64,000 nt of DNA from Arthrobacter sp. 35W (GTDB lineage: Bacteria; Actinomycetota; Actinomycetes; Actinomycetales; Micrococcaceae), in NCBI RefSeq assembly GCF_000482545.1, contig NZ_KI519454.1:992001-1056000 (forward strand). The letters run 5' to 3'. The stretch's first letter is position 1. Every line of letters begins with the position of its first letter. Under the pieces are notes generated by a model, which saw nothing but the letters and a program-made list of their open reading frames with translations, ran no database searches and was not told the DNA's origin. Positions 12,434 to 38,350 of the stretch are shown piece by piece. The position numbers were made by a program, and so were the translations under genes.

Positions 12434-15400
12434 CTAAAGACGCAGGCCGACGGAAACCATGGGCTCCTGTGAAGCAGGTCCATCGAGCTGAGCAGTAGCC
12501 GGCTTCGAATTCGGGTCGCGATGAGCCGCCATGCGCTCGATTTCTCGTTCCAGTGCACCTCGGTGCGTGGCCCGTTCCCACTCGTAGCCGGCGGTGGGTC
12601 CGCCAAGTGGAGCTTCATCGGAGCGGATTCCCCATCGATCTCGGTAGATGGCAACTTGGCTCACGAGAGCGGCCAAATCTCCGGGGGATAGTCCCTGGCC
12701 GACGCTCTGCTCAAGTTCACGCTTCCATTCAGGATCATCGATCATGGCAGCTTGCTCTACCAAAGAGTTTCGACGCATGACCCGCCGGCGTACTTGCTGA
12801 ATCATGTCCGCAAGGTCGCCGCGCCCGGTGTGGATTTCTTCGGCCAGAGACTCCAAGGGGTCCAGAAGGGCTTCAGTGCCGATTTGGCGAAGTCGCGCAT
12901 GTACGATGGCCATCTCGTCCCGAGCGCCACCAGGGTGGCGCAGCACGTCTTCCAGTGCCCGTACGGCCGTGGCGGGATCGGATGCCTTGGCTCGGCGCCA
13001 GGCAGCAACCCCAGCACCCCACGACGGCGACTGCTCAAGGCGCGGAACGGCGTCGGGCACCACCTTGGTGATGGCAGATATGAGGTCTTCGGCAGCAGCC
13101 AGCTGGGCGAGGTAGTCGTACTCGGCGGCGAGCTTCTGGAGATTGTCTCCGTTGGTCAGCTCCGCTTGCTGAACCTCGTGCGCCGTCCTTTCCGCACCTT
13201 CAGCCGCAAGGACCTCGCCGATGATCTGTGTCCAGTCGGCGTGGGATTGGGCTGTCAGTGGCTCGTCCGACAGCGGGTTGGTTTCACAGATGTACGCCGC
13301 GTTGCTGCTCCGGCCGCGGGTCATGCCGACATAGAAGAGTTCGCGGGTGAGGCACCCTTGCGTGATGACGGTGTGGCTGGTGTCGACCGTGATTCCCTGA
13401 GAGCGGTGTGCCGTGGTGGCGTAGCCAAGCTCAGCGGACGCCACGAGGTAGCTGGCTGGCAGGGTCACCGTAGTGCCGGCATCCAGACGTCGTCCGGTGG
13501 CGGATCCGTCGCGGCGGGGGAGTTGCGTGATCTCGATCAGGGTTCCATTGCGCAGGAAGTCGCCGTGGCTGTCGGTCAGCGAGCGGTTGTTCTTGCGCGC
13601 GATGATGGTGTCGCCTTGGCCAGCCCGTAGGCCATCACTGAGCTCGACGGTGTGCTCGGCGTCGACAAGGCCGGCGGCGACCTTGTCCGCGTGGGCTCGT
13701 TCATTGAGGATGGCAACAGTGTCGTTGTCCGGGGCGATCAGGATGGACGACAGGCTTGCCTTCGTGTCAGCGGCCCAGCCCTGGTAGGCGCCGTCGATCA
13801 TGGCGGCGAACTCTCCATGAAGGATGCGGCCATGGGCGTTGTACATCTCGACACCTTCGAAGTCGCCGGTCCGCAGTTTCAGCGATGCCGCACCTTCCCA
13901 GTCGTGGGTGAAGCGGCGGATGCTGGTCAGCTCAACAGCCTTGTCAGAACGGTGTAGCCAGCCCAACATGCCGCCGGCATCGATGGCGTCCAATTGGGCG
14001 GGGTCTCCAACCAGTAGGAGCTTCGCGTCAGCGTCGCTTACCTGGTGGACGAGGGCGGCAAGCTGAACCGTGGAAACCATCGAGGCCTCGTCAACGATGA
14101 CCAGCTGGTTGGGCTTGAACTGCCATTGTGCCTGCTGCATGGCCAACCCTGTCAGGTACTGGGCCGTCCGCAGCCGCGCTCGGGGAGAGGTCGCCTGGGC
14201 AGTTTCCAAATCAAGGAACCGTTCGGCCCGTGCTGCGGCCCCCTGCCCGACCGTCTCGTATAGCCACTTGGCCACGTTCTCGGCTGCGACGCCCAGCTGC
14301 CGGGTTAGGACCTCGGCACTGGCGGCCGCCGGCGCCAGTCCGACGACGCTGCCCTCGCCATGCGCTTGTTCCCAGGCCAACTTGATGGCGGCCATGGTGG
14401 TGGTCTTGCCGGATCCGGCGGGGCCGACGACGGCGTCGAGCCGGTTCCCGCCAGTCAGGACCGCCAGCGCAGCGGCCCACTGGTCAGACGCGAGACCGTA
14501 GCCGGCGGGGTGTCTGTAGCTGGTGAGTTGCTCCGCAGCGGAGGCCGACGGCGTGGCCGGTGCACCGCCGTCGTTCCTGGCGTCCATGATGAGTTGCTCG
14601 TTGGCAAGGATGCCGGCGTCGGAGTAGAGGCGAGCACCATGGAAGTCGAAGGCGCTGCGCCCGGCAAAGGCGAGGTCGGCGGCCGCGTCGAGGGGGAGAC
14701 TGTAGCGGTAGGTGTTGAGCGGGATGGACTGGGCCTCAGCGGAAGCCGTGACGACGTCGATCATGCGGCGGCGGTCGGCGGGGGAGGAACAGCGGATGTC
14801 ACCGCAGACGCGTTCGGCCTCGGCCAGGAGGTTCCAGCGGTTCCAAGTGGCACGGCGGAGGGCGACGCCTTCGCGGGTCAAGGTGGCAGCGGCGTCTATC
14901 CACGCCGTCGTGAGATCTGCGCCTGAGACCGGGCGTCGATGGGAACGGCTAATGGTGTCAGAGACGACGGATCTGGGCTCGAATCCCTGGGCCCGGGCAC
15001 GACGGCGCCAGGTCTCGGCCAGCTTCGACAGCGGTTTGGGAGTTTCGTCCTTGGGAGTGCGCGTGGACAGCGTTGCCTGTTGGCGGAGCTTGACGACGGT
15101 GGTGGCGCTGGGCTTCCGGCCGTGCTCAGTGGCCCATGCAGTGACGAGCCGATCGGTCTCGACATCGATGAGGCGGGACCGATTGGAAAACTCGCGGATG
15201 AGGGCGGTGTTGATCCCCGCCAGTTCATGGCTGGGATTGTGCAGTTTCGACGTCGGAATCCGAAACTCAGCATCCGTGCCAATGCTGCGCTGCAGCTCAT
15301 CGAAGAGCAAACCGTTGTAGTGCTCGCTGGCGGCAACCACCGCCTTGTACATGGTGCGCGAGTCGAGTGTGGCCCAGGCACCATCCGTGCTGCGCTGGAC

Positions 15401-15991
15401 GCGGTTGGCGATGACCAGATGTGTATGGAGCTGAGGGTCCCCAGCTCGCGACTCCCAGTGGTCGAAGGAGGCGGCGATTGCGCCCTTCGTGCCGAGGTGC
15501 GCGACGCCATTGCGCCCCGCCCGTGTGTGGAGGGCCGACTCTTCGAGCCAGAGCAGGGTTGTTGCGATTGCCGCGTGATGGGCAGAGAGTATCTGCTGTT
15601 GAACGTCCTTGGGGGCGAGCGCCCACAGGACCGATACCGACTTCGGGACACTGAACGTCAGGTCGAAGCCGGCGACTGCATGGCGCTGCTGCTCCTCCCC
15701 GTTCCTGTGGGCGATCGTGGTTCGACCATGCTCGCGGCCAAGCTGAGCTGCCGTGCCGGGGTGCTGGGCGTGACTGAAGACTGCAGAGGCGTCCGCCATC
15801 GCCACCATGTCCAAGGGCTGGCGACTGATCCCCGCGAGCCCGCTGCCAAGCCACCGGCCGGACGGGGTCCCGGCCTTGACGTAGTAGGTGGTGGCATCAG
15901 CGACCGGCTTCATAAGGTCGTCCTGCATGGTGGTCTTCATCAGGTACTTCACGCCGGAGTCAGCTGTCAGCCTGGCAATGGAGATGGTCAT
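12434..15991 (-). CDS. MobF (TrwC/TraA-like) relaxase-helicase
   Basis: 1185 residues. The N-terminal third is a TrwC-type relaxase that nicks and covalently holds the transfer strand. Its catalytic tyrosines are in YYVKAGTPSGRWLGSG, the fold motif is GFDLTFSVPKSVSVLWA, and the metal-binding triad is in HWESRAGDPQLHTHLVIANR. The middle is a superfamily 1 (RecD/TraI-like) helicase with Walker A GPAGSGKTTT near residue 520, Walker B VIVDEASMV near 628, and GDPAQLDAIDAGG. The start is set at ATG 15991, which gives MTISIARL as in homologues; it overlaps the upstream gene by 4 nt (ATGA). The protein supports conjugative mobilisation. No type IV secretion genes are in the window. Confidence 0.92.
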   Translation of the reverse strand: MTISIARLTADSGVKYLMKTTMQDDLMKPVADATTYYVKAGTPSGRWLGSGLAGISRQPLDMVAMADASAVFSHAQHPGTAAQLGREHGRTTIAHRNGEEQQRHAVAGFDLTFSVPKSVSVLWALAPKDVQQQILSAHHAAIATTLLWLEESALHTRAGRNGVAHLGTKGAIAASFDHWESRAGDPQLHTHLVIANRVQRSTDGAWATLDSRTMYKAVVAASEHYNGLLFDELQRSIGTDAEFRIPTSKLHNPSHELAGINTALIREFSNRSRLIDVETDRLVTAWATEHGRKPSATTVVKLRQQATLSTRTPKDETPKPLSKLAETWRRRARAQGFEPRSVVSDTISRSHRRPVSGADLTTAWIDAAATLTREGVALRRATWNRWNLLAEAERVCGDIRCSSPADRRRMIDVVTASAEAQSIPLNTYRYSLPLDAAADLAFAGRSAFDFHGARLYSDAGILANEQLIMDARNDGGAPATPSASAAEQLTSYRHPAGYGLASDQWAAALAVLTGGNRLDAVVGPAGSGKTTTMAAIKLAWEQAHGEGSVVGLAPAAASAEVLTRQLGVAAENVAKWLYETVGQGAAARAERFLDLETAQATSPRARLRTAQYLTGLAMQQAQWQFKPNQLVIVDEASMVSTVQLAALVHQVSDADAKLLLVGDPAQLDAIDAGGMLGWLHRSDKAVELTSIRRFTHDWEGAASLKLRTGDFEGVEMYNAHGRILHGEFAAMIDGAYQGWAADTKASLSSILIAPDNDTVAILNERAHADKVAAGLVDAEHTVELSDGLRAGQGDTIIARKNNRSLTDSHGDFLRNGTLIEITQLPRRDGSATGRRLDAGTTVTLPASYLVASAELGYATTAHRSQGITVDTSHTVITQGCLTRELFYVGMTRGRSSNAAYICETNPLSDEPLTAQSHADWTQIIGEVLAAEGAERTAHEVQQAELTNGDNLQKLAAEYDYLAQLAAAEDLISAITKVVPDAVPRLEQSPSWGAGVAAWRRAKASDPATAVRALEDVLRHPGGARDEMAIVHARLRQIGTEALLDPLESLAEEIHTGRGDLADMIQQVRRRVMRRNSLVEQAAMIDDPEWKRELEQSVGQGLSPGDLAALVSQVAIYRDRWGIRSDEAPLGGPTAGYEWERATHRGALEREIERMAAHRDPNSKPATAQLDGPASQEPMVSVGLRL

Positions 15992-16560
15992 GCCGACTGC
16001 CTCTGCCGTTGAGCGGTAGGAGCAGTCCAACCCCGGCGATGGAACGTGGCAACTGTTTGCTCATCGAATAGGTAGTGAGAGTTCCTATTCGCGAGGACCA
16101 GCCGACTGGCAAGAAGCATAAGATCCTGGCGGTCTTCGTGTTGGATCTGCCGAAGACGGGCGTAGTCACGATTGACTTCAGCAATCTGCGCTCGCAGCTC
16201 ACTCTGCTCCGCGTAGAGACGATCGCATTCCGAGGCAAGCGTCCGAAGCTCCTGCTGGAGACGACCGATGAGGCGCTCGCGGTCTGCAACCTCCGTCCGG
16301 CGCCGTTCATCAGCGGCCCTTTGAAACCTTCCAAGCTCGGCATCAAACTGTGCCTTGGCCGGGGATAGTTGAACATTGCCGCGGTCATCCTCCTGCCGTG
16401 GTGCAGCAAGCGAGGCGATTGACGTCGTGGCCGCCCGGCGTTGGCGCCGTCGTCGATCCCGTTGCCGATTGCCGCACGTTGTTGAGCAGAATTGCTGGTC
16501 TCTACGAAGCGGCTCAAAGTTGTTGCCGCACTCACGGCATGGTCGTGTGTTCACAACCAT
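15988..16560 (-). CDS. Zinc-finger, coiled-coil protein upstream of the relaxase
   Basis: 190 residues. The first 30 hold a four-cysteine zinc-binding site, CRECGNNFEP...FCSTTCGNRQRDRRRR, that ends in a strongly basic run. Residues about 70-150 form a charged coiled coil (LIGRLQQELRTLASECDRLY and onwards). A GTG or ATG start is clear from MVVNTRPCRECG, and its stop overlaps the relaxase ATG, so the two are co-translated. A DNA-binding accessory role at the transfer origin, as in other MobF relaxosomes, is likely but inferred from position and composition. Confidence 0.75.
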   Translation of the reverse strand: MVVNTRPCRECGNNFEPLRRDQQFCSTTCGNRQRDRRRRQRRAATTSIASLAAPRQEDDRGNVQLSPAKAQFDAELGRFQRAADERRRTEVADRERLIGRLQQELRTLASECDRLYAEQSELRAQIAEVNRDYARLRQIQHEDRQDLMLLASRLVLANRNSHYLFDEQTVATFHRRGWTAPTAQRQRQSA

Positions 16561-16959: not shown

Positions 16960-19900
16960 ATGGACACCGCGCCGCAGCTTGTGCAGCAGATACTATTCAG
17001 TCTCGACCGTCTTGGTGACACCAACAGTCACCATGAGTACGAGAAAATCTGCTTCGCATTTGCGCGTCGCCGAATCAGCATCAACCTGTTGCCGGCGACA
17101 GGACCAGTGAGCGCCGGCGGGGATCAGGGGCGTGACGGCGAGAGCTTCTGGTCCAACCTCGCGAACGAGCTTCCCGGTACCTCTGTACATGCAGCCACAG
17201 TTTCAGCGGAACGGGTGGTCCTGGCGTGCACAATCCAGAAGGCTGACGTTCCTACAAAGATACGCTCGGACCTGGCTAGCATCACGGGCAAAGGAACACC
17301 CGTCGCGCGCATTTTGTACTTCACAGTGGCATCCATCCCAGTTGCCAAACGGCACGAGCTCATCGCGGTAGCCAAAGCGAATCATGGTGTTGATCTTGAG
17401 ATCTTTGATGGACTCGCTCTTGCGGAACACCTAGCCGATCCAGACCTCTTCTGGATCGCGGCAGAGTACTTGAAGCTTCCGTCCTCCTTGGCGCCCGAGA
17501 GATTCGGACAAGACGAAGCCCTCCCCGGCTGGTATGTCCGGGATCGGGATTATTGGCGTGCACGAACGAATCCTGGGCGGACGATGGGTGACTTCGTTAG
17601 CCTCCGAGACGTGCTCCGCCATTCGACATTTCGCGACGAGGCGCGAGGTGACCTCGGCGACTGGATCGCTAAGATGCGCGAGATTCTCGCGCACGAGGGT
17701 GTGCGGGATGTACAGATGCGTGCCCGCTACGAAGTCGCTGTCGCCACACTCCGCGGGACCGGGACTTTGCAAGCAGCTGACACACTCTTCCGAGAGTTTT
17801 TTCAGATCATTACCGAGGTCGAGGACGACCTTCCTCTTCTTGAAGACGCAGTAGTCCTGCTCCAGTACGGCTACGGGGCTCGACTCCGCGGAAACACCGA
17901 CATCGCGATGGCCGTTCTGGACGGCTACTACCAGGCGCTCCGTTGTCATATCGGCTCAATGTTGGCCAACAGACCCTACCCCAACGCGAAAGCTCTGCTT
18001 CTCGCGATCGACGCTCGACTAGCGTTCTTCCCCGAGTATCCGACGAATATCCCGGACCGCATCGAGGGGCTGATCGATCCCCGTGAGAGTGTCCGTTTGG
18101 TTCTGGATGCCTACGAGGCTGGTGAGGCTGTTCCTGCCAAGGAAGCAGCAATACCTCTCAGAGACCTCGATGGAGGCTTTGCCTCGATTGACGAGCTATT
18201 GGCCGAGCTGCCGTCTGCTCCCGTGTTCCCCGTTGAGTCTACGGCCGACTTGTTTGACATGCTTGCGCTCTCATTGGCCTCTCATCCTGCGTATGTACGC
18301 GTTCGTGACGGTCTTGACGAGGCGGTGGCGCGTGTAAGTGGTGATACCAGCAGAGCGGAACGTGCACATGCGCGCGCGATCACATTCACTAAGTCTGGTC
18401 AGCTGCTCCGCGCGCTGGGGGAGGTGCACGACGCGAAAATCGGATGGTGGCACGGCGATACCATCCAGGACAGTATCCCGATGATGCTACTCGCTGCTTC
18501 AATCTACGAAAATCTCGGTCTGTTCTTCGCTGCGAAGCTCCACGCCTATGCCGCAGTCGTAGCCGCAACCAGCGCCCAGCAGACAGGCGCTCTCCACTTT
18601 GTCCCGCAAGCAATCGCAGTCGCTGCGATCAATGATTACAAGGCCGGCAACTGGTGTACGGCATCGCGGCTCCTGCACGTCACGCTACTTGCCCAAAACG
18701 CATACTCGGAAGACCCCGCAAACTTTGACCGGCACCAGTATCTCGCGGATCTGCTTCAGCGCCAGGCGTTCGCCCTTCACATTGCTCACAATCTGGCGCC
18801 TGCGTACGAGACGGACATGCGGACGACGGCTCAGAAGATGGGCACAGCCGACCTGACAGACAAGCTTGCTGATCAGATCAGCGGAGGCGTGGGACGGACG
18901 ATCGAGGAAGTCGTTGCCGCGTTGGATCAGCAAGGTCTGGGGCGCCCATTCGCTGATGCCGGGACGACACGTGAGATCCAATGGTCCGCATTCGGAACGA
19001 TCTGGACCGTGCGAAGCCGAAATAACCGCAACAGCACACTCGCGGCCGAACGACTGATCTCTGCGTTGCAGATCATTCAAGCCGAACTCGCCTTCTCGGA
19101 CGCCGTCTGGATCCCCTCCGAGGTTCGCATCGAAGTGAGGCTGGACGGAGACCACAGGGCACCCGGAACTGGCGTCCTGGAACGCGTCCAAGATGCGGAG
19201 GGGAGCCGTTGGCTCGTGCACCTAACACCGGGCGATAGGGTACAGGAAGAAGACGCCTTGACCGATCTTGTCACCGATGCCTCCCTGCTCCTACTCGACG
19301 CTTCCTTGCTCAGCCGCGAGCAGTTTCTCGAGCTCGTCAAGGACGCGTTCGTGAAGGGTCTCTGGCACAAGCTCTCTGGAGGGCGTCCCTACGATGAAGC
19401 TGCGGGCTTCCTTAGTGAGGAAGATTACGAAGCCATGAGGTTGCTTCCTCCTGCGCCTCTCGGGGCACAAGTGCCGCGAGAGGCGCACTTCGAGCATCCG
19501 GAACTACAACCGAGAACCGGCATTTCTGCCGTATACAACCATGACGCGGCAATCGAGAACCTTGGGCGTCGCTACGACCGGATGATGCCGATCGCACGTC
19601 TGACCATCCCTCGACTCGTGTCGAACCAAGCTTCATCAGCGGTGCTTCGCCAGCTTCGAGAGGAAGGATGGCTTGACTGGCAATTGATTATGGCGATCAC
19701 CAACATTATCGGAAATGCGCGCCCCGGGTGGGAAGGACTGCGCATCACTATTGGCAGTCCGCCAGTTGATCGCGAACGCGCCAACACGCTGATGCGAAGG
19801 GAGGAACTTGAGGCTGATCCTCAGTTGGGACCTGAGGCTTTTACGCGCGAAAAGCTCCTAGTCGCGCTGAAATTCACCGTACTACTTGTGCTGCCTTCGT

Positions 19901-20085
19901 ATGGGCTGCACCTGAACACCCCGAATCCGGAAGCGACCGCCATCCTCGGCATCCTTCGCGATCGGTTCAACTTTGGTGTCGACGACATTGAGCACGTCGA
20001 TCTGCTCGCTTCACCGCAGGACCAAACCGAGTCGTCCGTACACGCTCCTGCCGATGACGAAGGAGTAGCCGTTGGAGATTCTTGA
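16960..20085 (+). CDS. PD-(D/E)XK-like nuclease fused to a long helical region, putative defence effector
   Basis: 1041 residues. The N-terminal 170 resemble the restriction-endonuclease-like domain found at the front of several STAND/NLR-type defence proteins: HHEYEKICFAFARRRI (residues about 24-40), NLLPATGPVSAGGDQGRDGE (40-62), then LACTIQKADVPTKIRSDL and HGVDLEIFDGLALAEHLADP. The Asp of GGDQGRD and the QK of CTIQK fit the D...(E/Q)xK pattern of such nucleases. Residues about 190-700 look like alpha-helical repeats; no P-loop (GKS/GKT) is seen, so no NTPase domain is present. The start is ATG 16960, with GAGGAG upstream; the frame is open a further 81 codons with no conserved character. 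It overlaps the zinc-ribbon gene by 14 nt. The function is inferred. Confidence 0.75.
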   Translation: MDTAPQLVQQILFSLDRLGDTNSHHEYEKICFAFARRRISINLLPATGPVSAGGDQGRDGESFWSNLANELPGTSVHAATVSAERVVLACTIQKADVPTKIRSDLASITGKGTPVARILYFTVASIPVAKRHELIAVAKANHGVDLEIFDGLALAEHLADPDLFWIAAEYLKLPSSLAPERFGQDEALPGWYVRDRDYWRARTNPGRTMGDFVSLRDVLRHSTFRDEARGDLGDWIAKMREILAHEGVRDVQMRARYEVAVATLRGTGTLQAADTLFREFFQIITEVEDDLPLLEDAVVLLQYGYGARLRGNTDIAMAVLDGYYQALRCHIGSMLANRPYPNAKALLLAIDARLAFFPEYPTNIPDRIEGLIDPRESVRLVLDAYEAGEAVPAKEAAIPLRDLDGGFASIDELLAELPSAPVFPVESTADLFDMLALSLASHPAYVRVRDGLDEAVARVSGDTSRAERAHARAITFTKSGQLLRALGEVHDAKIGWWHGDTIQDSIPMMLLAASIYENLGLFFAAKLHAYAAVVAATSAQQTGALHFVPQAIAVAAINDYKAGNWCTASRLLHVTLLAQNAYSEDPANFDRHQYLADLLQRQAFALHIAHNLAPAYETDMRTTAQKMGTADLTDKLADQISGGVGRTIEEVVAALDQQGLGRPFADAGTTREIQWSAFGTIWTVRSRNNRNSTLAAERLISALQIIQAELAFSDAVWIPSEVRIEVRLDGDHRAPGTGVLERVQDAEGSRWLVHLTPGDRVQEEDALTDLVTDASLLLLDASLLSREQFLELVKDAFVKGLWHKLSGGRPYDEAAGFLSEEDYEAMRLLPPAPLGAQVPREAHFEHPELQPRTGISAVYNHDAAIENLGRRYDRMMPIARLTIPRLVSNQASSAVLRQLREEGWLDWQLIMAITNIIGNARPGWEGLRITIGSPPVDRERANTLMRREELEADPQLGPEAFTREKLLVALKFTVLLVLPSYGLHLNTPNPEATAILGILRDRFNFGVDDIEHVDLLASPQDQTESSVHAPADDEGVAVGDS

Positions 20086-21250
20086 TCCTGCCACGCTCGC
20101 TGAGCGGTCTGACGGCTTCGATTATGGGTACTGGATGAAATGTTCGTGCGGTGGCTCTTCATTTCTCGCTGCGCATGACTACTTTGCCCAGATGGACCAG
20201 GCCCGCATGACCTGCGAGCGGTGCGGTGCGCGTATTCATTTCGGCCCAGCCGTAGCTGCACTTCGCGACCGATGCGATCCCGTCCTTCAAGATGGCACCG
20301 TCGCAAGCCTTGCTTGGTACCACACCAGCACTTCGCCTGATTGGCCGTCCCCAGATTATTCCAGCCGGTTCGCTGAAGCGCTGCAATGGGATGGTCGTCT
20401 CGTAGGCGTTAACCGTGAGCAGCATATTCTCGAAGAGACGACCAGGGCGCTGCATATCGGCACGTACGAGACCGCGATCGAAAACATGCTGCGCCGCATG
20501 AACCATGAGGGCGACGGTGGCGCTCAATTCTATCTCTACCGTGTGCTTCGCCGCAGTGGACCACTACGGATCAATCCCGGATACCGCGATGAGAACCACG
20601 AAGTCGCGGCGCACATCAGAATCCGCTACCTTGATGCCCACGGACTCGACGCGGTTCGATACCTCAACGTTCATGAGGCAATGGGCGTACTCTCGCTCGC
20701 AGTGCGCCCGGAAGTAATCGCGGCGGTGCAGAGCATCGAAATTCCTCTCCGTGACCTGGCACAGCCGATCGCAACCGAGTCCTTCTCGGAAGATGTGGCC
20801 AAGTTGGAATCCTTGAAGCGGGATTGGATGGCTGCTGAGGCTCAAATCGCTTCCATTGGCCGAGGCTCGCGGCGACTGATGCAGCTCGGTGCTCGTCCTG
20901 ACCCAGGCGGACTCACGAAGCGCGCAGCTAACCTGGAACGTCGCCATCAAGAGCTTTGGCGTGACTTCGAAGAGGCTCTTGGAAAGCGATTCTTGACGAA
21001 GGCGTCGCTGATCATCAAGCAGGAATTCACGGAGGCGCTAGCGAGCTGGAGGAGCGCTAGTCCCAGCGCCAGCATGCATCTGTTTGTCGAACGCTATGCG
21101 GCGATGGCCAGTCTTCTGGAACGACCAGAAGAAGTTCGAGAGTCGATCAGGAATACGGAGTGGCGAGCCGTGCATCAGCCGACCACTCGGACTGTGGAAA
21201 GCGAAGTCGATTCGAGTGTGCCCTCGAGCAGGGCCAGTTCCGTACGGTGA
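20072..21250 (+). CDS. Zinc-ribbon protein partnered with the nuclease
   Basis: 392 residues. The N-terminal part carries a treble-clef/zinc-ribbon pair (KCSCGG at residues 23-28 and CERCG at about 48-52). The rest is mainly helical and charged, with a coiled-coil-like stretch (residues about 240-330, LESLKRDWMAAEAQIASI and AANLERRHQELWRDFEEALG). The start is TTG at 20072, with AAGGAG 6 nt upstream, placed inside the end of the nuclease gene, so the two are translationally coupled. No enzyme motif is recognised. It may sense nucleic acid or regulate the nuclease; this is inference from gene pairing only. Confidence 0.65.
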   Translation: MEILDPATLAERSDGFDYGYWMKCSCGGSSFLAAHDYFAQMDQARMTCERCGARIHFGPAVAALRDRCDPVLQDGTVASLAWYHTSTSPDWPSPDYSSRFAEALQWDGRLVGVNREQHILEETTRALHIGTYETAIENMLRRMNHEGDGGAQFYLYRVLRRSGPLRINPGYRDENHEVAAHIRIRYLDAHGLDAVRYLNVHEAMGVLSLAVRPEVIAAVQSIEIPLRDLAQPIATESFSEDVAKLESLKRDWMAAEAQIASIGRGSRRLMQLGARPDPGGLTKRAANLERRHQELWRDFEEALGKRFLTKASLIIKQEFTEALASWRSASPSASMHLFVERYAAMASLLERPEEVRESIRNTEWRAVHQPTTRTVESEVDSSVPSSRASSVR

Positions 21251-22618: not shown

Positions 22619-23602
22619 TCAACGACCGCGGCTGAGGGCCTTCTCGGCACGTTCAAGGAGCGCCTGGTCGGTGGTGCTGAGCGTGAGGGTTCCGCCGGAG
22701 GCCATCTCGCCGTCGCGGATCTCGATGACCCGCCGGTGCAACCGCTGTCCGGAGTGGCCCTTCAGCGGAGCCACCACATTCATCAATGATGTTTCCAGAA
22801 TCAGGACATTCCGCCCAGTCGTGGTTTGCAGCCAGAGTGGCCTGAGCTGGGCAAGAAGAACGCGTTGCTTGAGATCCACCAAGACCCTCTGCATAGGGCG
22901 TTCGAGGCGGGGGATCAGGAGCCCGACACCGATGAGCACGACGGCGAGAGTCTCGCCGATCCAATAGAGGGAATCGAGTGCGACGGCGGATGGGCTGCCG
23001 GGGATTCGACGTGGGCTGAGCACTGCGTAGAGGATTCGATCAACAATGGTGAGGCCCGCTGCCACGCAGCCGAATCCGATGAGGAGGAAACCGGCCCGAT
23101 AGATGGGCGAGTGAAGGTTGGCGAGGTTGCGCAGGCAGATCCGGGCGGCATCGACGGTGACCCAGATCAAGAAGGCTGAGCCGGTCCAAAGGAAGAGGGC
23201 CATCCCCGACTGGCTGGCGTAGGCAAGCTGGAGGTTCCTATCCGTGGGCCCAGGATCGCTGACCGCGAAGCCTGCAACAGCAATCGCTGTCGTCGCCAGC
23301 ACTGCACCACGGCCGACGGCGAGCTGTTGCCGTCGTCGTCCTTCATCCGGTTGGACGGCGATGAGGACGGCGCTGCGGAACTGCCAAAAGCCGACCAACA
23401 GGGCCACAAGGGTCAGTGCCTTGGTCCAGTTGCGCCCGCCCAACAGCGGATCAACAGCGAGGTAGACGGCGGGGACGTAGAGCGTGCAGGCGGTGGCGGC
23501 GAACAGGGCGGCGCGGAACACGCTCCCACGGCGCGGGTCCAGACCGCTGCGAAGGCGGGCAGCGGCAAGGATCCAGAGGATGGCTGCCGCCACGATGTCC
23601 AT
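22619..23602 (-). CDS. MAB_1171c-type multi-span membrane protein
   Basis: 327 residues. About seven hydrophobic segments (from VAAAILWILAAARLRSG to ALDSLYWIGETLAVVLIGVG) are followed by a 100-residue cytosolic tail starting LIPRLERPMQRVLVDLKQRV. This layout matches the actinobacterial MAB_1171c family, annotated as putative transporters without experimental support. The ATG overlaps the stop of the ImmA/IrrE-like gene (TGATG), so the two are coupled. In other Actinobacteria this membrane protein is commonly beside an XRE regulator and a small metallopeptidase; here the regulator is missing. Confidence 0.7.
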   Translation of the reverse strand: MDIVAAAILWILAAARLRSGLDPRRGSVFRAALFAATACTLYVPAVYLAVDPLLGGRNWTKALTLVALLVGFWQFRSAVLIAVQPDEGRRRQQLAVGRGAVLATTAIAVAGFAVSDPGPTDRNLQLAYASQSGMALFLWTGSAFLIWVTVDAARICLRNLANLHSPIYRAGFLLIGFGCVAAGLTIVDRILYAVLSPRRIPGSPSAVALDSLYWIGETLAVVLIGVGLLIPRLERPMQRVLVDLKQRVLLAQLRPLWLQTTTGRNVLILETSLMNVVAPLKGHSGQRLHRRVIEIRDGEMASGGTLTLSTTDQALLERAEKALSRGR

Positions 23603-24090
23603 CAGCCGAAGACTTCCCCGAAGGCGAGGTGCTCCGACTTGTCCGACAGCGGCGTGCCGCGCATGATGCGGGCGGCGATCCGGTCTGCGAGGGCCTCGGC
23701 TGTTCTCTCGGCGTCATTGTGGAAGCTGCTGCGGCGGAGCACATGAAGCACCAGGGCTGGATCGAGGTCCGGCATCAGTTGCTCGCTAAGGCCGGAGTTG
23801 GTGGCGTCGATGTCGTGGCGGAGGATCATGTGGCTGAGTTCGTGCAGGATGATCTGCTGGCGGTGCAGGGCTGAGCGCACCGGTGCGTGGAGGATGAGGT
23901 CCCTGTCCGGGAGGACCAGCCAGAGGCCGCACACGTCGACGCCGGTGAGTCCACTCAGCTCGGTTATCGTGATGGGGCGGTTCCTGGATTGCTCGACTGA
24001 TTCCTGGACGTTCTCCAGAGTGAGCCGTGCGGGCAAGTTCAACTGCTTGTCTGCCTGATGGGCGACCCTGTGGGCTTCCCGGATTCTCAT
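23602..24090 (-). CDS. ImmA/IrrE-type zinc metallopeptidase-like protein
   Basis: 162 residues. The metal-binding helix HELSHMILRHD (HExxH, about residues 83-93) and the surrounding pattern place it in the ImmA/IrrE family. Members often cleave a repressor (as ImmA does ImmR in ICEBs1) or act in toxin-antitoxin pairs. It overlaps the MpaB-like gene upstream by 4 nt and the membrane-protein gene downstream by 1 nt. No cognate helix-turn-helix repressor is present nearby, so its target is unclear. Confidence 0.75.
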   Translation of the reverse strand: MRIREAHRVAHQADKQLNLPARLTLENVQESVEQSRNRPITITELSGLTGVDVCGLWLVLPDRDLILHAPVRSALHRQQIILHELSHMILRHDIDATNSGLSEQLMPDLDPALVLHVLRRSSFHNDAERTAEALADRIAARIMRGTPLSDKSEHLAFGEVFG

Positions 24091-25369: not shown

Positions 25370-28300
25370 ATGACTGTTCAGCTTGATGCGATGCCACGCC
25401 TCCCGAAACCGGGTGACATTGTGGAAGTTCGTGGCGCGAACTGGGCTGTCGCAGATGTCCGTGAGCAGGGTCTTCCGCGCAGCTCGGCCGACGACGGGGT
25501 CCCACAGCTCAACCACGTAATTTCGCTGCAATCCCTGGCCGAAGACAGGATGGGCGAAGAGCTCAATGTCATCTGGGAGCTGGAGGTCGGCCACTCGGTC
25601 GCCCCGGACCAAGGCCTACCGGAGATGATCACCCCGGAGGGGTTTGACGACCCGAACCGACTGGCGGCCTTTGTCGACGCCGTCCGGTGGGGTGCGGTGA
25701 CTTCGGCGAACGAGGGAGCATTCCAGGCGCCGTTCCGCTCGGGAGCGAACGTAGAGGCCTATCAGCTTGAACCGTTGCGTCGAGCACTGCAGGCGCCGCG
25801 CACCAACCTGCTTCTGGCCGACGACGTCGGCTTGGGCAAGACGATCGAGGCCGGCTTGGTCGTCCAGGAGCTTCTGCTAAGACACCGTGCCCGCTCGGTC
25901 GTAATCGTGTGCCCACCGAGCCTGTCGATCAAGTGGCAGGACGAGATGCGTGAGAAATTCGGTCTGGACTTCGTCATCGTCAACTCCGATGTGATGGCCG
26001 AGGTGCGTCGGACGCATGGCTTGAATGCCAATCCATTCCGTCTATTTCCGCGGGTGATCGTGTCGATGGCATGGCTGCCGGGACTTCGCGCCCAGCGGCT
26101 GATGCGGGACGTCTATTCCGAGGCCGGCAAGGTCAACAGCGCCCGCCGATATGCATTCGACGTACTCGTAGTCGACGAAGCCCATCACGTTGCCCCATCG
26201 AGCCCAACGTCGCTAGGCGGTGCCCGCGGATACGCGGTGGATTCCCAGCGCACGGCCGCCGTTCGTGAACTGGCAAAGGTCTGTGAGCACCGGCTGTTCC
26301 TGTCCGCGACACCGCACAACGGGCACTCGGAGTCGTTCACAGCGCTGCTGGAGATGATTGACAACCGCCGTTTCTCCCGCGGTGCCACGGTCGATGCCCA
26401 GGCGCTCAAGGAAGTGACAGTTCGTCGGCTTAAGCGGGACATCAAGGAGAAGGGCTTCAAAGCTCGTCAACTCGAGACGATCCACTTCGCACCAGGCAAG
26501 GACGAACAGGAAGCGTTCGAGACCCTCGATGGCATCTTGGAGGCGAGTGCTCGGGCCAACGGACAGAAACGCTCAGGAGACATCGTCTCGATGCTACTGA
26601 AAAAGCGCTTCCTGTCCAGCCCATATGCGTTCGGATCCACCCTGGCCGGCTACCGCGAGGCTACCTCGGCGGCCCGAAGGGATTGGGATGACGAGCACGA
26701 GTACTACGGGGAGGTCCTCGGTTCAGACCAATCGGACGAGGAGGAAGGCGGTGCCGAGCACCCGGAGTTCGACACACTGCGCCATTCCAAGGTGACCGAC
26801 CCGCTTGTCACGGCCACGCCGGAGCAGATCGGACGGCTCGTGGACTGGGGGCTGGGCTACCAGTCCAAGCCGGATTCGCGTTTGAAGGCCCTGATTGAGT
26901 GGTTGAATGCGATCTGCAGGCCCGACGGCAAGACATGGACCAACGAGCGCGTGGTGATCTTCACCGAGTACGCCGACACCCTGAACTGGATCGTGGAGAA
27001 CCTGCGCCAGCGTGGCTATGACGAAACCCGGCTTGCCACGATCGAGGGATCGATAGGAACCGAGGATCGTGAGATGACCCGCGCCCGATTCAACGCCGAC
27101 CCCAGTCGTGAACCAATCCGTGTTTTGGTCGCCACCGATGCCGCGGGAGAGGGAATCGACCTTCAGGCCTACTGCCATCGTCTGGTGAACTTCGACGTTC
27201 CGTTCAACCCCTCGCGTCTGGAACAACGTATCGGCCGCATTGACCGATACGGGCAGACCGAGGTTCCCCAGGTGTTCCAGTTCCTGCCCGAACAGACTGC
27301 CGGTACTTACGGGGCGGACATGGACTTCATGCGCCGCATTGCAGAGAAGGTCGCCACTGTCGCTGACGATCTGGGCTCTGTGAACCCGGTGATCGACGCC
27401 GACATCCAGAACCACTTCGGTCGGATCAAGGTCACCGCGCGCGCCCAGGGGCTGAAGGATGATGACAACGCCATCATCAACAAGGCGATGGCCGGTGACC
27501 AAGAGGTCAACCGGGTCCTGACCGAGCTGGCGAACACATACGACGTGCAGAAGGAACGCATGCACCTGACGCCGTACAACTCCCGCCGCGTCATTGACAC
27601 GGCGCTCACCCTGACCAATCAACCCACCTTGGTCGAGGACGGTTCACAGGACCACGATGCCAAGGTCTTCCGCGTACCGGTCCTCGGCCGGTCCTGGCAA
27701 GAAGCCGTTAAGGGCTTGGACAGCCGCCTTCAGCCGGGTGTATACCGGCCCATCACTTTCGATGACTCCGTGCTCCAAGGCGGATTCGAGGACGTCGTGC
27801 ACGTGCACCTCGGGCACGGTCTGATGCAGAAGGCCTCCCGCATTCTGCGCGCCTCGCTGTTCAGCGCCGAGTCCTCCATCAACCGGGTGACTGCGGTGGT
27901 CGTACCCGGTATCGAACAGTCCTGCGTCGCAGCGATCTCCCGTCTGGTGCTCGTCGGGCGGGGCGGGTTGCGCCTGCACGAGGAAATCTTCGTGACCGGT
28001 ATCCGTGTCAAGGGCCAGCGGCTGGCCGAATCCAAGGCAGATGCCCTGCTCGAGAAGACACTCGACACCACGGACCTCTCCTTGGCTGACGAACGGATCC
28101 GTGCGCGGCTGGCGCAGGAGTGGAACGCCGACGGTGGGCGGTTGCGCTCCCGCCTGGAGACAGCGATGCGCAACAGTGCGATCAAGAACCAGGAGTCGGT
28201 CACCGCGGACCTGGAGAAGCGCAGGGACGCCGACACCGACCGGGCCCGGCAGATCTTCGCCAACTTCCGTCGCAACCTGCAGGACTCCCTGCGTGATCGG

Positions 28301-28537
28301 CGGGAGAACCAGAACGAGCTCGAGGGGATGCTGTTCGACCTCGACCCCAGGCAGGCTGAGCAGTTCAGGTTGGACATCCGGTCGATGGAGAATCGCCTGG
28401 CCAATCTCGCCGAGGAAGAGTCGCGCGAGATTGCGGCGATCACCGAGCGCTACACCGACATCCGTCCCTTCGTGTCAGCTGCGGCCGTGGTGTTCGCGCT
28501 GACCGAGCAGGACGCCAAACACGGAGAACTGTCATGA
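25370..28537 (+). CDS. drmD: DISARM SNF2-like helicase DrmD
   Basis: 1055 residues of a SNF2/RapA-like superfamily 2 ATPase, the marker gene of class 1 DISARM. The motifs are in order: ADDVGLGKTIEAG (about residues 150-162), DEAH in VVDEAHHVAP (near 268), SATPHNGH (near 310), then the second RecA lobe with VIFTEYADTLNW (near 530), ATDAAGEGIDLQ and RIGRIDRYGQ (near 620). The C-terminal 350 residues are charged and coiled-coil-like. DISARM restricts unmethylated phage DNA; DrmD is thought to translocate on DNA. Its stop overlaps the drmMI start (ATGA), and the five drm genes follow each other without gaps. Confidence 0.93.
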   Translation: MTVQLDAMPRLPKPGDIVEVRGANWAVADVREQGLPRSSADDGVPQLNHVISLQSLAEDRMGEELNVIWELEVGHSVAPDQGLPEMITPEGFDDPNRLAAFVDAVRWGAVTSANEGAFQAPFRSGANVEAYQLEPLRRALQAPRTNLLLADDVGLGKTIEAGLVVQELLLRHRARSVVIVCPPSLSIKWQDEMREKFGLDFVIVNSDVMAEVRRTHGLNANPFRLFPRVIVSMAWLPGLRAQRLMRDVYSEAGKVNSARRYAFDVLVVDEAHHVAPSSPTSLGGARGYAVDSQRTAAVRELAKVCEHRLFLSATPHNGHSESFTALLEMIDNRRFSRGATVDAQALKEVTVRRLKRDIKEKGFKARQLETIHFAPGKDEQEAFETLDGILEASARANGQKRSGDIVSMLLKKRFLSSPYAFGSTLAGYREATSAARRDWDDEHEYYGEVLGSDQSDEEEGGAEHPEFDTLRHSKVTDPLVTATPEQIGRLVDWGLGYQSKPDSRLKALIEWLNAICRPDGKTWTNERVVIFTEYADTLNWIVENLRQRGYDETRLATIEGSIGTEDREMTRARFNADPSREPIRVLVATDAAGEGIDLQAYCHRLVNFDVPFNPSRLEQRIGRIDRYGQTEVPQVFQFLPEQTAGTYGADMDFMRRIAEKVATVADDLGSVNPVIDADIQNHFGRIKVTARAQGLKDDDNAIINKAMAGDQEVNRVLTELANTYDVQKERMHLTPYNSRRVIDTALTLTNQPTLVEDGSQDHDAKVFRVPVLGRSWQEAVKGLDSRLQPGVYRPITFDDSVLQGGFEDVVHVHLGHGLMQKASRILRASLFSAESSINRVTAVVVPGIEQSCVAAISRLVLVGRGGLRLHEEIFVTGIRVKGQRLAESKADALLEKTLDTTDLSLADERIRARLAQEWNADGGRLRSRLETAMRNSAIKNQESVTADLEKRRDADTDRARQIFANFRRNLQDSLRDRRENQNELEGMLFDLDPRQAEQFRLDIRSMENRLANLAEEESREIAAITERYTDIRPFVSAAAVVFALTEQDAKHGELS

Positions 28538-31500
28538 GGCCACGCAGCACCCAGCGGCGCACCAGAGAGCACCGGGACTGGCTCGAACTCGTAGACCGTG
28601 ACGGCCCGTTCGTTGCGATCCCTGCGATCAAGCGGGTCTGGCCCCAGGGAATGCCCCAGTTGGGGGCGAACACGAAGGCCGCTTTGCGGGACGCCAAGCC
28701 AAACTTCGACCGCGCCTGGGACGACTGGAGCAAGGCCCCCGCGGACGACGAGGCCGCAGTTGAGTCATACCGTGGTGCCCGGAACAAATGGATCGATGCC
28801 GTGCTTCGTGACGTCGCCCGCTGGGGTGCTCACCTTGTATGGGACGACGAGGAGCACGGGGAGAGTCGCACTCAGGGGTCATCCGCGAAGCTGACGACCG
28901 CTGACAATGCATCCGGAAAGTTCGTTCGCGACGGTGTGGCCTCCGCCCTCGTCATGGTCTTTGATCCTGTAGATTCGCTGCGTGATCCGATGAACGATTC
29001 CTGGACCGCGAGCCCGATCGACCGGATGGATGCGCTCTTGCGCAAGTCAGAGCAAAAGGTCGGCGTGCTCACCGACGGACGGTGGTGGGCCATCGTCTGC
29101 GCCCAGGACGGAGTCATGACAGCCTCAGGCATTGTTGACGCACAGACGTGGATCGAAGAGTCTGACGTTCGTGATGCCTTCCTTGAGCTCATCTCGCCCC
29201 AGCGCCTGGCTGGCGGCAGTGGAAAAGACCGGCTGCCCGAGCTGTTCAAAGAGTCGATCACCGCAGCGGAAGATATCACCGTTGCCCTAGGTACCCAGGT
29301 ACGCCGCGCTGTCGAGCTCTTGGTGACCGCCTTCTCCGAGGAAGCGTTCGAGGCGCGGGACGCCGGCTGGCCTGATCCGTTGCCGGCCGACCGCGAGCTC
29401 GTCTACGAGGGCGCGGTCACCGCGATGATGCGCGTGGTGTTCCTGCTCTTCGCCGAGGAGCGCTCGATGATGCCCCAGTCGCCTCTGTTTACCGAGGCCT
29501 ATGGCGTCAGCGGTCTGCTGGATGACCTGGACAAACGCATACGCGATGAGGGCGCGGAAGCCCTTGATGCCACTCACGACACGTGGCACCGCCTGCTGGC
29601 CACATCCAAGGCACTGTACGGGGGAGTGACATCCGAGGACATCCGTCTGCCTGCCTACGGCGGATCGCTCTTCGACCCGGCACGATTCACGTTCCTCACC
29701 GATGTCGACGACCGTGGAGCCTTGGCAGTTGCCGTCAGCGACCGTGTCATGCTCGAAGTTCTGCGCGCCGTGCAGTACGCGGTCATCGGCACGGGCAAAT
29801 CGGCCGAGCGTCGCAGGGTGTCCTTCCGTGACGTCGACGTCGAGCAGATCGGCTACATCTACGAGGGGCTGCTGGGGTATACCGCCGAAGATGTCGACGA
29901 GATCGTTGTGGGTCTGGTCGGCAAGGACGGTGAAGAGCCTGAGATTCCGTTGCGGGTACTTGAGAAACTCGCCGAGGCCAACCCCGCCTCGGCGAAATTC
30001 GGTGCTGATGTTATCGCGTGGGTTAAGAAGAACCAGCCGGCGGCCACGACGAAGTCGGCCGCAGCGTTGCTGAAGTTGCTGGGCGAAAAGGTTGAGGACG
30101 GCGAACATGCCCTGCTGTCCGTGACGCGTGATGAGGCGCTGCTGGCACGGCTACGCCCGTTCTTGGGCATCATCCGCCGCGACCTGCGTGAGCGACCTGT
30201 GGTCATCCAGCCCGGCGGGCTCGCGGTTGTCGAGACCCCGTCACGCGCAAACTCAGGAGCACACTACACACCCAAGTCGCTCGCCCAGGAAGTCGTGCGC
30301 TACGCACTCGAGCCGTTGGTCTTCCAACCTGGCCCGCACCAGACAGCCGACGAATCCGGGTGGAAGCTGCTGGACTCCAACGAGATCCTTGACCTCAAGG
30401 TCGCAGACATTGCGTGTGGTTCCGGAGCCTTCCTCGTGGCGGCCGCCGAGTTCTTGGCGGCCAAGGTCCTTCAGGCCTGGCACGCCGAAGGTGTCACCGG
30501 ATCCGCGCACGAGCTTGAGACCAAGGCCAGACGACAGGTAGTCGCCCAGTGCCTCTACGGAGCCGATATCAATGGTATGGCCGTGGAAATGTGCAAGATC
30601 TCTCTCTGGCTTGTGTCCCTGGATCCAAAGCTTCCGTTCTCCTTCGTCGACGATAAGGTGCTTCACGGAAACTCCTTGCTTGGCATCACCGACATTGCGC
30701 AACTTGAAGCTCTGCACATCTATCCTTCCCAGACCAGAAAACTCTGGGACAAGACTCAGTATTCCGCTGGCACATTGTTCGGTGAAGGGTCTGAAGCACA
30801 AGGTCTTGAAGTGCTCGATGTCCGGGCAGTGATCCAAAAGGCCGTTAAGCTACGGCAGCGTCTGGCCACAGAAGTTGATGAGAATGACCCGGCACGTTCG
30901 AGCAAGAGCAAGCGCAGGCTCTGGCACGAGTACCAGGAGCTCACCGCGCAGATGAGCTCCGTGGCCGACGGTATCATCGCCGTTAGCTTGGAGGAAGGCG
31001 GGAAGCCAGGAAAGAAGCTCAACCAGCGCTATGAAAACTTCAGGATCGCTGTGGACCGTGCGTTCGCAGCCAACGGTCTCGGAAGCCGAACGATGCTCGA
31101 CGACATCATTGATCGAGGTTTGACCCCTAAGGCGAAGACCGACTATGGGCGTTGGAAACCGCTCCATTGGCTGCTTGCAGTGCCGGATGTGATGGAACGT
31201 GGGGGGTTCGATGGGTTAATCGGGAACCCTGCATTCCTCCACAGCAAGAAGATCACCACTGCATTCGGGAAGAACTACCGCGATGTGCTTCAGCAAGTTC
31301 TTGCTAACGGAGTCGTCGGTGACGCTGACCTTGCCGCCTATTTCCTCCTTCGCCAGTCGCAGCTAATTTCTCAAACAGGCGGAATTGGAATTGTTGTCAC
31401 GAAATCGATCTTGCAGTCTCACACCAAGGTAGTTGGCCTCGATCAAGTTCTGGCTGGTGGCGCAAAGCTGGTCCGATTTTCCGAGCCCTTTGATTGGGGT

Positions 31501-32550
31501 CCCAGCGGGGCTTCTGTTTCGGTAGTCAAGATCTGGATTACGAGAGACGCCATCGCAGGAAACGCCGTAACGATACTCGATGAACCTCTACAGCCAGTGG
31601 GCGTGCTCCGAGTTCGCGCGTATCTGGGTACATATCCAAACGGAGATGGGTTCAGGGTAGGCCGGCAAAAGGCATCTTCCTGGATTCAGGAAGATCCAGG
31701 CTTAGCGCACGCTCTCTATCCATACATCCGTGCGGCAGACCTCTCGCAAGGACGCCCTTCGGAAGCGGAAGAGTACTTGATTGACCTTGATGGACGGCCC
31801 GAGAGCGAAGCGCGGGAGTTCGCAGTGTTATGGGACCACCTCGAGACGCACCAGCGTCCATGGCACGAGCGCCCGGATACAAATACGAAGAGAAAAGAGC
31901 GGTGGTGGAATTTCGAAAGATCCGCTGGCGCCCTTTATCGAGACTTAGATGAGATTGAGCGGGCGATAGCATTCCCGCGCACCAGCAATCTCGTCATGCC
32001 CCGATGGATTCCTGCAAATGTGCGTTATGACATGGGCGTAGTCGTATTCCCCTATAATGACTGGTCTGTCTTCGCGCAACTCGCGTCAAGTTTGCATTAC
32101 CATTGGGTACTTGCCTTCGGGGCTACCACCCGCGACGACCCGAGCTACGCTCCAAAGCGGGTGGCGAACACATTCCCCTGGTTGCAAAGTGATATGGACG
32201 TTGCGGCTGTCAAAGAATTTGAAGAGTTACTCGAGAATTCTTGTGAGTCACGCCGCGGCCTTCGCTCTGTAATGAACGCTTTCAACGAGGAGAAATGCAG
32301 TGATGCTGATATTGTTCTATTGCGCGAGAAATTTGTGTTGCTTGATCGAGTAACGATCGATGCGTTTGGGTGGTCTGATCTCCGCCCTGTATACGGATTT
32401 TATGAGCACAAGAATCTCACTAGATTCTCGGTAGACGCTAATTCCCGGGACGAGATCCTCCGTCGTTTGCTCAAGGAGAACCACCTACGCGCCGCACTTC
32501 AAAGTAAGGAAGTTTCGTTGGGTAATTCAGAGGACGGCGACGAAGATTGA
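28534..32550 (+). CDS. drmMI: DISARM class 1 adenine methylase DrmMI
   Basis: 1338 residues of a large N6-adenine methyltransferase, the self-DNA-marking arm of class 1 DISARM. The SAM-binding motif I is ADIACGSGAFLVAAAEF near residue 625, preceded by SGAHYTPKSLAQEVVRYAL. Motif IV reads NPAF at residues 898-901 (GLIGNPAFLHSKK) where NPPF/NPPY is expected; this may weaken or alter methylation. The N-terminal 550 residues and the C-terminal 300 (target recognition) are typical for the PglX/DrmMI class. The last kilobase is visibly less GC-rich than the start, which suggests a separately acquired recognition part. It overlaps drmD and drmA by 4 nt each. Confidence 0.9.
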   Translation: MRPRSTQRRTREHRDWLELVDRDGPFVAIPAIKRVWPQGMPQLGANTKAALRDAKPNFDRAWDDWSKAPADDEAAVESYRGARNKWIDAVLRDVARWGAHLVWDDEEHGESRTQGSSAKLTTADNASGKFVRDGVASALVMVFDPVDSLRDPMNDSWTASPIDRMDALLRKSEQKVGVLTDGRWWAIVCAQDGVMTASGIVDAQTWIEESDVRDAFLELISPQRLAGGSGKDRLPELFKESITAAEDITVALGTQVRRAVELLVTAFSEEAFEARDAGWPDPLPADRELVYEGAVTAMMRVVFLLFAEERSMMPQSPLFTEAYGVSGLLDDLDKRIRDEGAEALDATHDTWHRLLATSKALYGGVTSEDIRLPAYGGSLFDPARFTFLTDVDDRGALAVAVSDRVMLEVLRAVQYAVIGTGKSAERRRVSFRDVDVEQIGYIYEGLLGYTAEDVDEIVVGLVGKDGEEPEIPLRVLEKLAEANPASAKFGADVIAWVKKNQPAATTKSAAALLKLLGEKVEDGEHALLSVTRDEALLARLRPFLGIIRRDLRERPVVIQPGGLAVVETPSRANSGAHYTPKSLAQEVVRYALEPLVFQPGPHQTADESGWKLLDSNEILDLKVADIACGSGAFLVAAAEFLAAKVLQAWHAEGVTGSAHELETKARRQVVAQCLYGADINGMAVEMCKISLWLVSLDPKLPFSFVDDKVLHGNSLLGITDIAQLEALHIYPSQTRKLWDKTQYSAGTLFGEGSEAQGLEVLDVRAVIQKAVKLRQRLATEVDENDPARSSKSKRRLWHEYQELTAQMSSVADGIIAVSLEEGGKPGKKLNQRYENFRIAVDRAFAANGLGSRTMLDDIIDRGLTPKAKTDYGRWKPLHWLLAVPDVMERGGFDGLIGNPAFLHSKKITTAFGKNYRDVLQQVLANGVVGDADLAAYFLLRQSQLISQTGGIGIVVTKSILQSHTKVVGLDQVLAGGAKLVRFSEPFDWGPSGASVSVVKIWITRDAIAGNAVTILDEPLQPVGVLRVRAYLGTYPNGDGFRVGRQKASSWIQEDPGLAHALYPYIRAADLSQGRPSEAEEYLIDLDGRPESEAREFAVLWDHLETHQRPWHERPDTNTKRKERWWNFERSAGALYRDLDEIERAIAFPRTSNLVMPRWIPANVRYDMGVVVFPYNDWSVFAQLASSLHYHWVLAFGATTRDDPSYAPKRVANTFPWLQSDMDVAAVKEFEELLENSCESRRGLRSVMNAFNEEKCSDADIVLLREKFVLLDRVTIDAFGWSDLRPVYGFYEHKNLTRFSVDANSRDEILRRLLKENHLRAALQSKEVSLGNSEDGDED

Positions 32551-38340: not shown

Positions 38341-38350
38341 GGGATCTCGG

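Follow-up and report, generated by a model that had tools for sequence, protein, structure and literature searches.

What is the role of two overlapping genes that lie between a relaxase gene and a DISARM operon in the actinobacterium Arthrobacter sp. 35W, and whose products reach no family cut-off in the libraries searched? The genes, here termed G1 and G2, were analysed within a 64,000-nucleotide stretch of contig NZ_KI519454.1 (positions 992,001 to 1,056,000, forward strand), which is referred to as the window and supplies the coordinates used below. An earlier note, made from the letters of this DNA alone, had read them as a likely new anti-phage system in which a nuclease with a helical body is partnered by a zinc-ribbon protein that may supply sensing. 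We propose, with about an even chance of being right, that they form a mobile two-gene anti-phage or anti-plasmid unit in which G1 acts as a sensor-nuclease and G2 as an accessory enzyme resembling ADP-ribosyltransferases (ARTs).

G1 (P0001; 16960–20085 on the + strand, stop codon included) encodes 1,041 amino acids, a putative nuclease joined to a helical solenoid, with which relatives align end to end. The motifs GGDQGRD (residues 53–59) and CTIQK (residues 90–94) both fall within its first 100 residues, as the earlier note had reported. A longer frame of 1,122 amino acids opens at 16717; the start was placed at 16960 because near relatives align from residues 1–3 and GAGGAG precedes the ATG at this position. 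G2 (P0002; 20072–21250, + strand), delimited from its open reading frame (ORF) and its relatives, encodes 392 amino acids, begins with a TTG preceded by AAGGAG and overlaps G1 by 14 nt. Both starts have a Shine-Dalgarno-like sequence upstream, and G2 carries the CSCGG and CERCG motifs noticed earlier in the overlapping gene. Chance reading frames are excluded, since G1 has at least 136 relatives and kin of G2 are found on plasmids, chromosomes and phage contigs.

The N-terminal domain of G1 (residues 1–185; 16960–17514, + strand) is predicted to be PD-(D/E)XK-like from its invariant residues, its modelled secondary structure and a weak hhalign alignment to the Mrr_cat profile. Residues E28, T47-G48-P49, G54-D55, D59, K100 and D104 are invariant in all 70 rows of the family alignment (A5, comprising the window and 69 of 80 loci, 11 having been left out as broken or short frames, near-copies or one further Streptomyces copy), and also in an alignment of 38 rows that includes three distant proteins. 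The conserved acidic residue of the D motif is thus present as D59, together with E28. An AlphaFold2 (AF2) model built with 70 sequences has a mean predicted local distance difference test score (pLDDT) of 87.8 and gives, in order, a helix at 24–38, strands at 43–45, 60–62 and 86–91, a helix at 97–110 and a strand at 117–122, with short helices at 67–70 and 76–79 between. This order, taken over residues 1–180, resembles restriction-endonuclease folds, residues 41–80 being of low confidence (block means of 59–76). The hhalign alignment to Mrr-type PD-(D/E)XK nucleases (PF04471) covers most of the domain, with FE (the helix glutamate), GD.G.D and the late DG in order and in register, and scores 20.5, whereas the reversed profile reaches 15.2 and RES 10.9.

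Beyond this domain (residues 186–1041; 17515–20082, + strand), G1 is mostly a helical solenoid in the AF2 model, similar to tetratricopeptide repeat (TPR) proteins and with strands at about residues 670–755; it is the proposed sensor body. In a Foldseek search of the PDB, the top of the G1 list is taken by TPR proteins, LGN among them; IFIT5 and a STAND TPR protein follow lower down, all with E above 0.001, and a chain of a Cas7-11/Csx29 complex is listed as well. Taken together, the AF2 model, Foldseek and the Mrr_cat alignment support the nuclease-like N-terminus and helical body that had been read from the sequence; nuclease activity is a prediction. A hidden Markov model of the body retrieves three Bacteroidota proteins with E values of 2.7e-146 to 1e-166, starting from their residues ~271–313. 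In two of the three, the body is fronted by a Cap4_nuclease match (L009, 4.9e-8; L029, 2.2e-5, just under the Pfam cut-off; L numbers denote loci), while the third aligns with these two from its N-terminus and has no such match. G1 itself does not match this profile (PF14130) up to E 10. A search for PF14130 in 98 genomes gave no match, but gave none in the 14 controls either, so that its outcome carries no weight. That the solenoid is kept while one nuclease type gives way to another is the best indirect evidence on function, and suggests that the N-terminus of G1 is a nuclease effector and that the body is a reusable sensor or regulator. Directly upstream of the two Cap4-fronted genes, which lie on two Hymenobacter plasmids, is a conserved gene of 416 amino acids (L009:7912-9162; L029:1520-2770).

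No nucleoside triphosphatase (NTPase) domain of Pfam was found in G1 or in 41 relatives, and the P-loop string [AG]x4GK[ST], which G1 lacks, occurs in one of the 70 family rows (L045), in line with the absence of an NTPase in the earlier reading. A STAND architecture for G1 was accordingly rejected. The further statement that this type of N-terminus usually fronts STAND NTPases found no support in our survey, in which one of 70 rows and none of the three distant proteins has the string, STAND proteins themselves lying outside the survey. These distant proteins constitute a second family of about 1,080 amino acids with a G1-type N-terminus, a remotely similar body (2e-16 to 3e-19) and no P-loop; they are encoded on plasmids of Cohnella, Cupriavidus and Sphingobium (L026:4893-8153, L027:4902-8102 and L028:4851-8081), and are undescribed, with no Pfam match at E 1.

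Neither G1 nor G2 has a match above the curated cut-off in Pfam or NCBIfam, or any match in PADLOC up to E 10, and the pair is therefore undescribed in these libraries, as had been supposed. Membership of G1 in a Pfam, NCBIfam or PADLOC family was ruled out, as even 41 relatives gave only stray matches in Pfam and PADLOC, each in a single member (best E 0.016 and 0.0043, respectively); for this family, the NCBIfam scan covered G1 itself. In a scan of one genome per species (84,980 species), 136 of the 308 pattern-matched stretches were G1 relatives, which is a lower bound because the scan needs an exact match to two short N-terminal patterns. The best 80 of the 136 were returned and include Actinomycetota, Proteobacteria, Bacteroidota, Chloroflexota and archaeal records; 78 of them were tabulated, since L041 and L066 lack a single frame. 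A tblastn search with G1 (E up to 1) gave matches in 27 plasmid records, nine of them covering at least 80% of the query, and 10 of the 11 records with a match over at least 35% of G1 including the body were used as plasmid loci, H8 and H11 (a weak 49% match) being left out. The gene is rare despite this wide spread: an N-terminal profile matches two of the 296 genomes of the phylum, one of them the window's own, and among 98 kin genomes G1 matches occur in three, namely the window's own, G022 and, as a 53-residue remnant, G057. A scan of viral contigs with G1 gave five pattern stretches and no relative among them, a search of phages gave a single match over 14% of the query, the DNA of a gammaproteobacterial relative had no match in E. 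coli, and a PDB sequence search with G1 found nothing at E 1. Two kinds of damaged gene were also encountered. A 53-residue G1-type remnant, 57% identical and with no intact gene around it, occurs at L011:6001-6156 and L003:1501-1656 and in H25 and H27, and in L011 (plasmid pNAPH of Rhodococcus pyridinivorans) adjoins a MobF relaxase. A Bradyrhizobium relative (L006:9968-12912) is annotated as two overlapping frames and is possibly a broken gene.

The two genes are not randomly associated in one clade of the family. In all five loci in which G1 is 71–74% identical to that of the window, representing five genera, G2 lies directly behind G1, overlapping or nearly abutting it (distances of −1, −17, −1, −1 and +45 nt in L034, L035, L036, L037 and L045, respectively). 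When the nearest same-strand neighbours within 300 bp of G1 in the 78 loci (38 downstream, 42 upstream) are clustered, G2 makes up the largest group, with five loci; seven other clusters have two or three members each and are mostly near-copies, and 58 neighbours are single, so that most G1 relatives have no steady partner. In three very similar loci, two of them from Brevundimonas (L099, L100 and L103), G1 is flanked by recurrent genes of its own (~1188 and 345 amino acids), which cluster apart from G2. The close clade falls into two groups, between which G1 is 69–72% identical and G2 only 32–36%. On a tree built from 28 G2 rows, the G1-linked genes need two changes; the starred branches impose the same number, and in none of the bootstrap trees does one change suffice. 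The tree omits four short pieces (two of L023, L033 and L185), weaker fragments and further copies of genes already included, and the tree program warned of long branches in it. Thus, two separate G2 lineages stand behind closely similar G1 genes: either G2 entered the slot on two or more occasions, or one occupant gave way to another. This favours a functional link between G1 and G2 in this clade.

What G2 contributes is suggested by its conserved core rather than by its cysteines. The zinc-ribbon-like segment (20129–20239, + strand) comprises C24, C26, C48 and C51, which are kept in 26, 26, 25 and 28 of the 28 rows, respectively, with two rows gapped at the first pair and three having V at position 48; it is confined to the first ~55 residues and is modelled with low confidence. 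The earlier proposal that a zinc-ribbon protein acts as the sensor is thus not borne out, as the conserved core that follows looks of ADP-ribosyltransferase type. In this core (residues 66–232; 20267–20767, + strand), H84, Y132 and E202 are invariant in all 28 rows, as are W82, W91-P92, G130, R141-R142, R196-Y197 and N199. A variable helical part (residues 235–360; 20774–21151, + strand) is delimited by alignment and AF2 at the C-terminal end. We take the segments WYHTS, ALHxGTYEAA and RYLNxHE to resemble the YHxT, GxYxA and E positions found in PARPs and in enzymes of the diphtheria group. The AF2 model of G2, built with 10 sequences, has a mean pLDDT of 77.8, with lower values in the zinc segment. 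When this model was searched against the PDB with Foldseek, ranks 2–10, 12, 13 and 15 (12 of the top 15) went to entries titled as PARP, diphtheria toxin, PltA or RES/NatT proteins, none being significant (E 0.18 or worse). RES, NatT and PltA belong to ART-like folds, and no ART or RES entry is among the 50 PDB matches shown for G1. An HY-[E,D,Q] triad is the ART signature and was used as such for CmdT, according to the accessible part of PMC11618068. On this evidence, the core of G2 is probably ADP-ribosyltransferase-like.

Sequence searches with G2 gave little. Fifteen members of its alignment gave only stray matches in Pfam and NCBIfam, many of them to zinc-binding models (best E 0.019 and 0.038, respectively), the best PDB sequence match had an E of 0.19, and a search of phages returned none. 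In five IMG/VR contigs (L114-L118), G2-type genes lie among phage genes and are unaccompanied by G1; in L117 and L118 they run against the orientation of the genes around them, as accessory cargo may do. On a plasmid of Nocardia farcinica a G2-type gene is apparently split around IS21-type genes (L023:7794-11647), and another plasmid of this species carries a longer relative of it (L017).

The surroundings of the G1 family are rich in defence genes. At 1e-10, PADLOC gave matches to 178 models for 115 neighbour proteins of 61 loci and to nine models for 115 control proteins; as it holds many models per protein, these are counts of models and not of genes. The neighbours scanned were 115 of 127, after removal of the five G2 partners and of a further seven that were near-duplicates or short, and the controls were 115 of 117 proteins from 20 arbitrary chromosomal stretches of actinobacterial kin, which were not phylum-matched. 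Among 25 listed of the 178 models are Lamassu, Dpd, a SAVED effector, a cyclase, IetS, AbiEii, PsyrT, QatA and a type I methyltransferase, while the control models are mad2, mad3, mad8, a subtilase, two viperins, AriA, SoFic and PDC-S24, with one or two proteins each. The annotated plasmid relatives have Shedu in L005, HEPN and restriction endonuclease genes in L004, and ABC-3C and reverse transcriptase genes in L007. The expectation of a defence-rich setting is thereby supported. A relaxase related to the MobF protein of the window is present in five of the 80 G1 loci (L034, L045, L051, L074 and L082), and part of the family may therefore be carried by MobF elements.

In the window, as had been stated, the unit lies between mobilization genes and DISARM. 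A TrwC/MobF relaxase gene lies upstream (12434–16030, − strand), and drmD, drmMI, drmA, drmB and drmC (25370–39076, + strand) lie downstream, beginning 4.1 kb after the end of G2. Four genes separate G2 from DISARM, all on the opposite strand and, in order, of the DUF4192, DUF6545, unassigned and MPAB/Lcp types. A protein of 162 amino acids encoded at 23602-24090 (− strand) has no Pfam match at 0.001, and we take it, from its ILHELSHMI motif, to be an ImmA/IrrE-like metallopeptidase.

We propose the following scheme for the unit. The TPR-like solenoid of G1 (residues ~186–1020) would recognize an invader-derived signal and free the N-terminal PD-(D/E)XK-like nuclease, which would then cut DNA. 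G2, with its zinc ribbon, ART-like domain and helical tail, would work alongside, either attaching ADP-ribose to a nucleic acid or a protein or consuming NAD+. The order of these events, the trigger, the targets and even the sign of the effect of G2 on G1 are inferred. A tighter, mutually dependent version, which we regard as quite unlikely, would have the zinc-ribbon ART place ADP-ribose as a mark on G1 itself or on a nucleic acid; the solenoid-nuclease would read this mark and cut, so that exchange of G2 would shift the marked target.

Several observations weigh against this scheme. In G1, the AF2 model is least sure near the D motif itself, the hhalign result for Mrr_cat is weak, with a P of 0.023 and a probability of 2% (P 0.17 for the reversed control), and no nuclease domain is among the 50 PDB matches shown by Foldseek. 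Moreover, the (D/E/Q)xK motif is absent from the third strand, where A89-C90-T91 occupies the place of the Mrr QxK; in view of this and of the weak alignment, we describe the N-terminus as PD-(D/E)XK-like, with a catalytic lysine that is displaced or changed. The invariant K100 in the next helix, with the Q or E found at position 93 in 64 of 70 rows, may have to replace the lysine of that strand. For G2, no ART match in the PDB is significant and TM-scores are low, and in a viral structure library the best matches (E 0.0071) are unnamed phage proteins, a PARP-like entry standing tenth and an ART 41st in the list. A comparison by hhalign with RES (21 rows), KptA (3) and DarT (1) gave nothing, PARP and diphtheria-group profiles lying outside it; membership of G2 in the RES, KptA or DarT families was rejected on this basis. 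Plain metabolic genes, such as those for dehydrogenases and an aldo/keto reductase, are also present by Pfam among the 115 neighbours. Other counts concern the pairing. G2 is missing behind all 73 other tabulated G1 relatives, every one of which is below 46% identity, and an ORF profile search agrees, a few of these absences being uncertain as five of the 78 loci end less than 1 kb from the G1 stop; the 11 G1 loci on plasmids or from the same genus likewise lack it. Conversely, none of the 28 other G2 loci has a G1 relative, within flanks that vary up to 8 kb and with several loci being fragments or near-copies. The idea that G2 generally accompanies G1 across the family was accordingly rejected. 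The two-gene unit of the earlier note therefore stands for one clade, with five of five at 71–74% identity, and fails for the rest; the genes are rarely adjacent across the family as a whole but not within this close clade.

These counts favour the main rival, which we rate as rather unlikely, namely that G1 is a self-sufficient, single-gene defence protein and G2 a passenger from a mobile element with an unrelated job of its own. The widespread absence of G2 behind G1, the lack of any other partner that recurs beyond small groups of mostly near-copies, and the occurrence of G2 relatives apart from G1 on plasmids, chromosomes and phage contigs all speak for it. Against it stand the complete and close pairing in the five loci of the clade and the two distinct G2 lineages in one slot behind G1 genes that are 69–74% identical, the latter being hard to see as passive. 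The repeated placement of G2 directly behind G1 suggests a joint role, and tells against a very improbable reading in which phages and plasmids use G2 for counter-defence or superinfection and the gene was captured beside G1. This reading draws on the phage genes that surround G2 relatives in the five IMG/VR contigs and on AcrIF11, described in the accessible part of PMC11383003 as a phage- and plasmid-borne ART.

The overlap of the two genes, the presence of a relaxase close to G1 both here and in the five loci named above, and the fact that the toxin of CmdTAC is an ART (in the accessible text of PMC11618068) also fit a toxin-antitoxin-like pair that stabilizes a mobile element, with G2 as a toxin controlled by G1 or the reverse. 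We consider this improbable: G1 is large, nuclease-like and mostly without G2, and the 28 loci in which G2 occurs without G1 would be costly for an uncontrolled toxin. A sensor-nuclease assisted by an ART-like enzyme is the reading that we retain for the unit.

The unit has partial likenesses to several known systems. G1 shares its body with three Bacteroidota proteins, two of which are Cap4 nuclease/DUF4297-fronted (PF14130), but its N-terminus has a different motif set and neither G1 nor G2 has an NTPase. With CmdTAC, an mRNA ADP-ribosyltransferase defence, G2 has in common an H-Y-E triad and a predicted ART-like fold of one component, as far as PMC11618068 was accessible, whereas no antitoxin or SecB-like chaperone was recognized beside G2, which has a zinc ribbon and a nuclease-solenoid partner instead. 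In the nuclease-protease pairs of bacterial immunity, a nuclease is also repeatedly joined to a second enzyme in defence loci; these nucleases are of the MBL type or caspase-linked in the accessible portion of PMC12799240, whereas here the second enzyme is ART-like and not a protease. G1 and G2 are not of the drm set of DISARM. No paper was recognized as describing the G1 or G2 family in the open-access PubMed Central (PMC) literature (supplements not covered), and no example of a nuclease combined with an ART-like partner was found in the articles searched. DefensePredictor (PMC13092281) validated 13 systems with PD-(D/E)XK domains, and two figure legends in the accessible part of that article name TPR; a G1 relative could be among these systems.

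With at least 136 members in bacteria and archaea, a position beside defence genes and no model in the libraries, the G1 family is a blind spot of defence annotation. Judged from sequence, models and gene context, the putative unit probably represents a new type of bacterial immune unit. The exchange of the nuclease with the solenoid kept suggests that the latter is a reusable sensor module, and if the ART-like G2 works with the G1 nuclease, the pair would add to bacterial immunity a combination of activities without an example in the literature searched.

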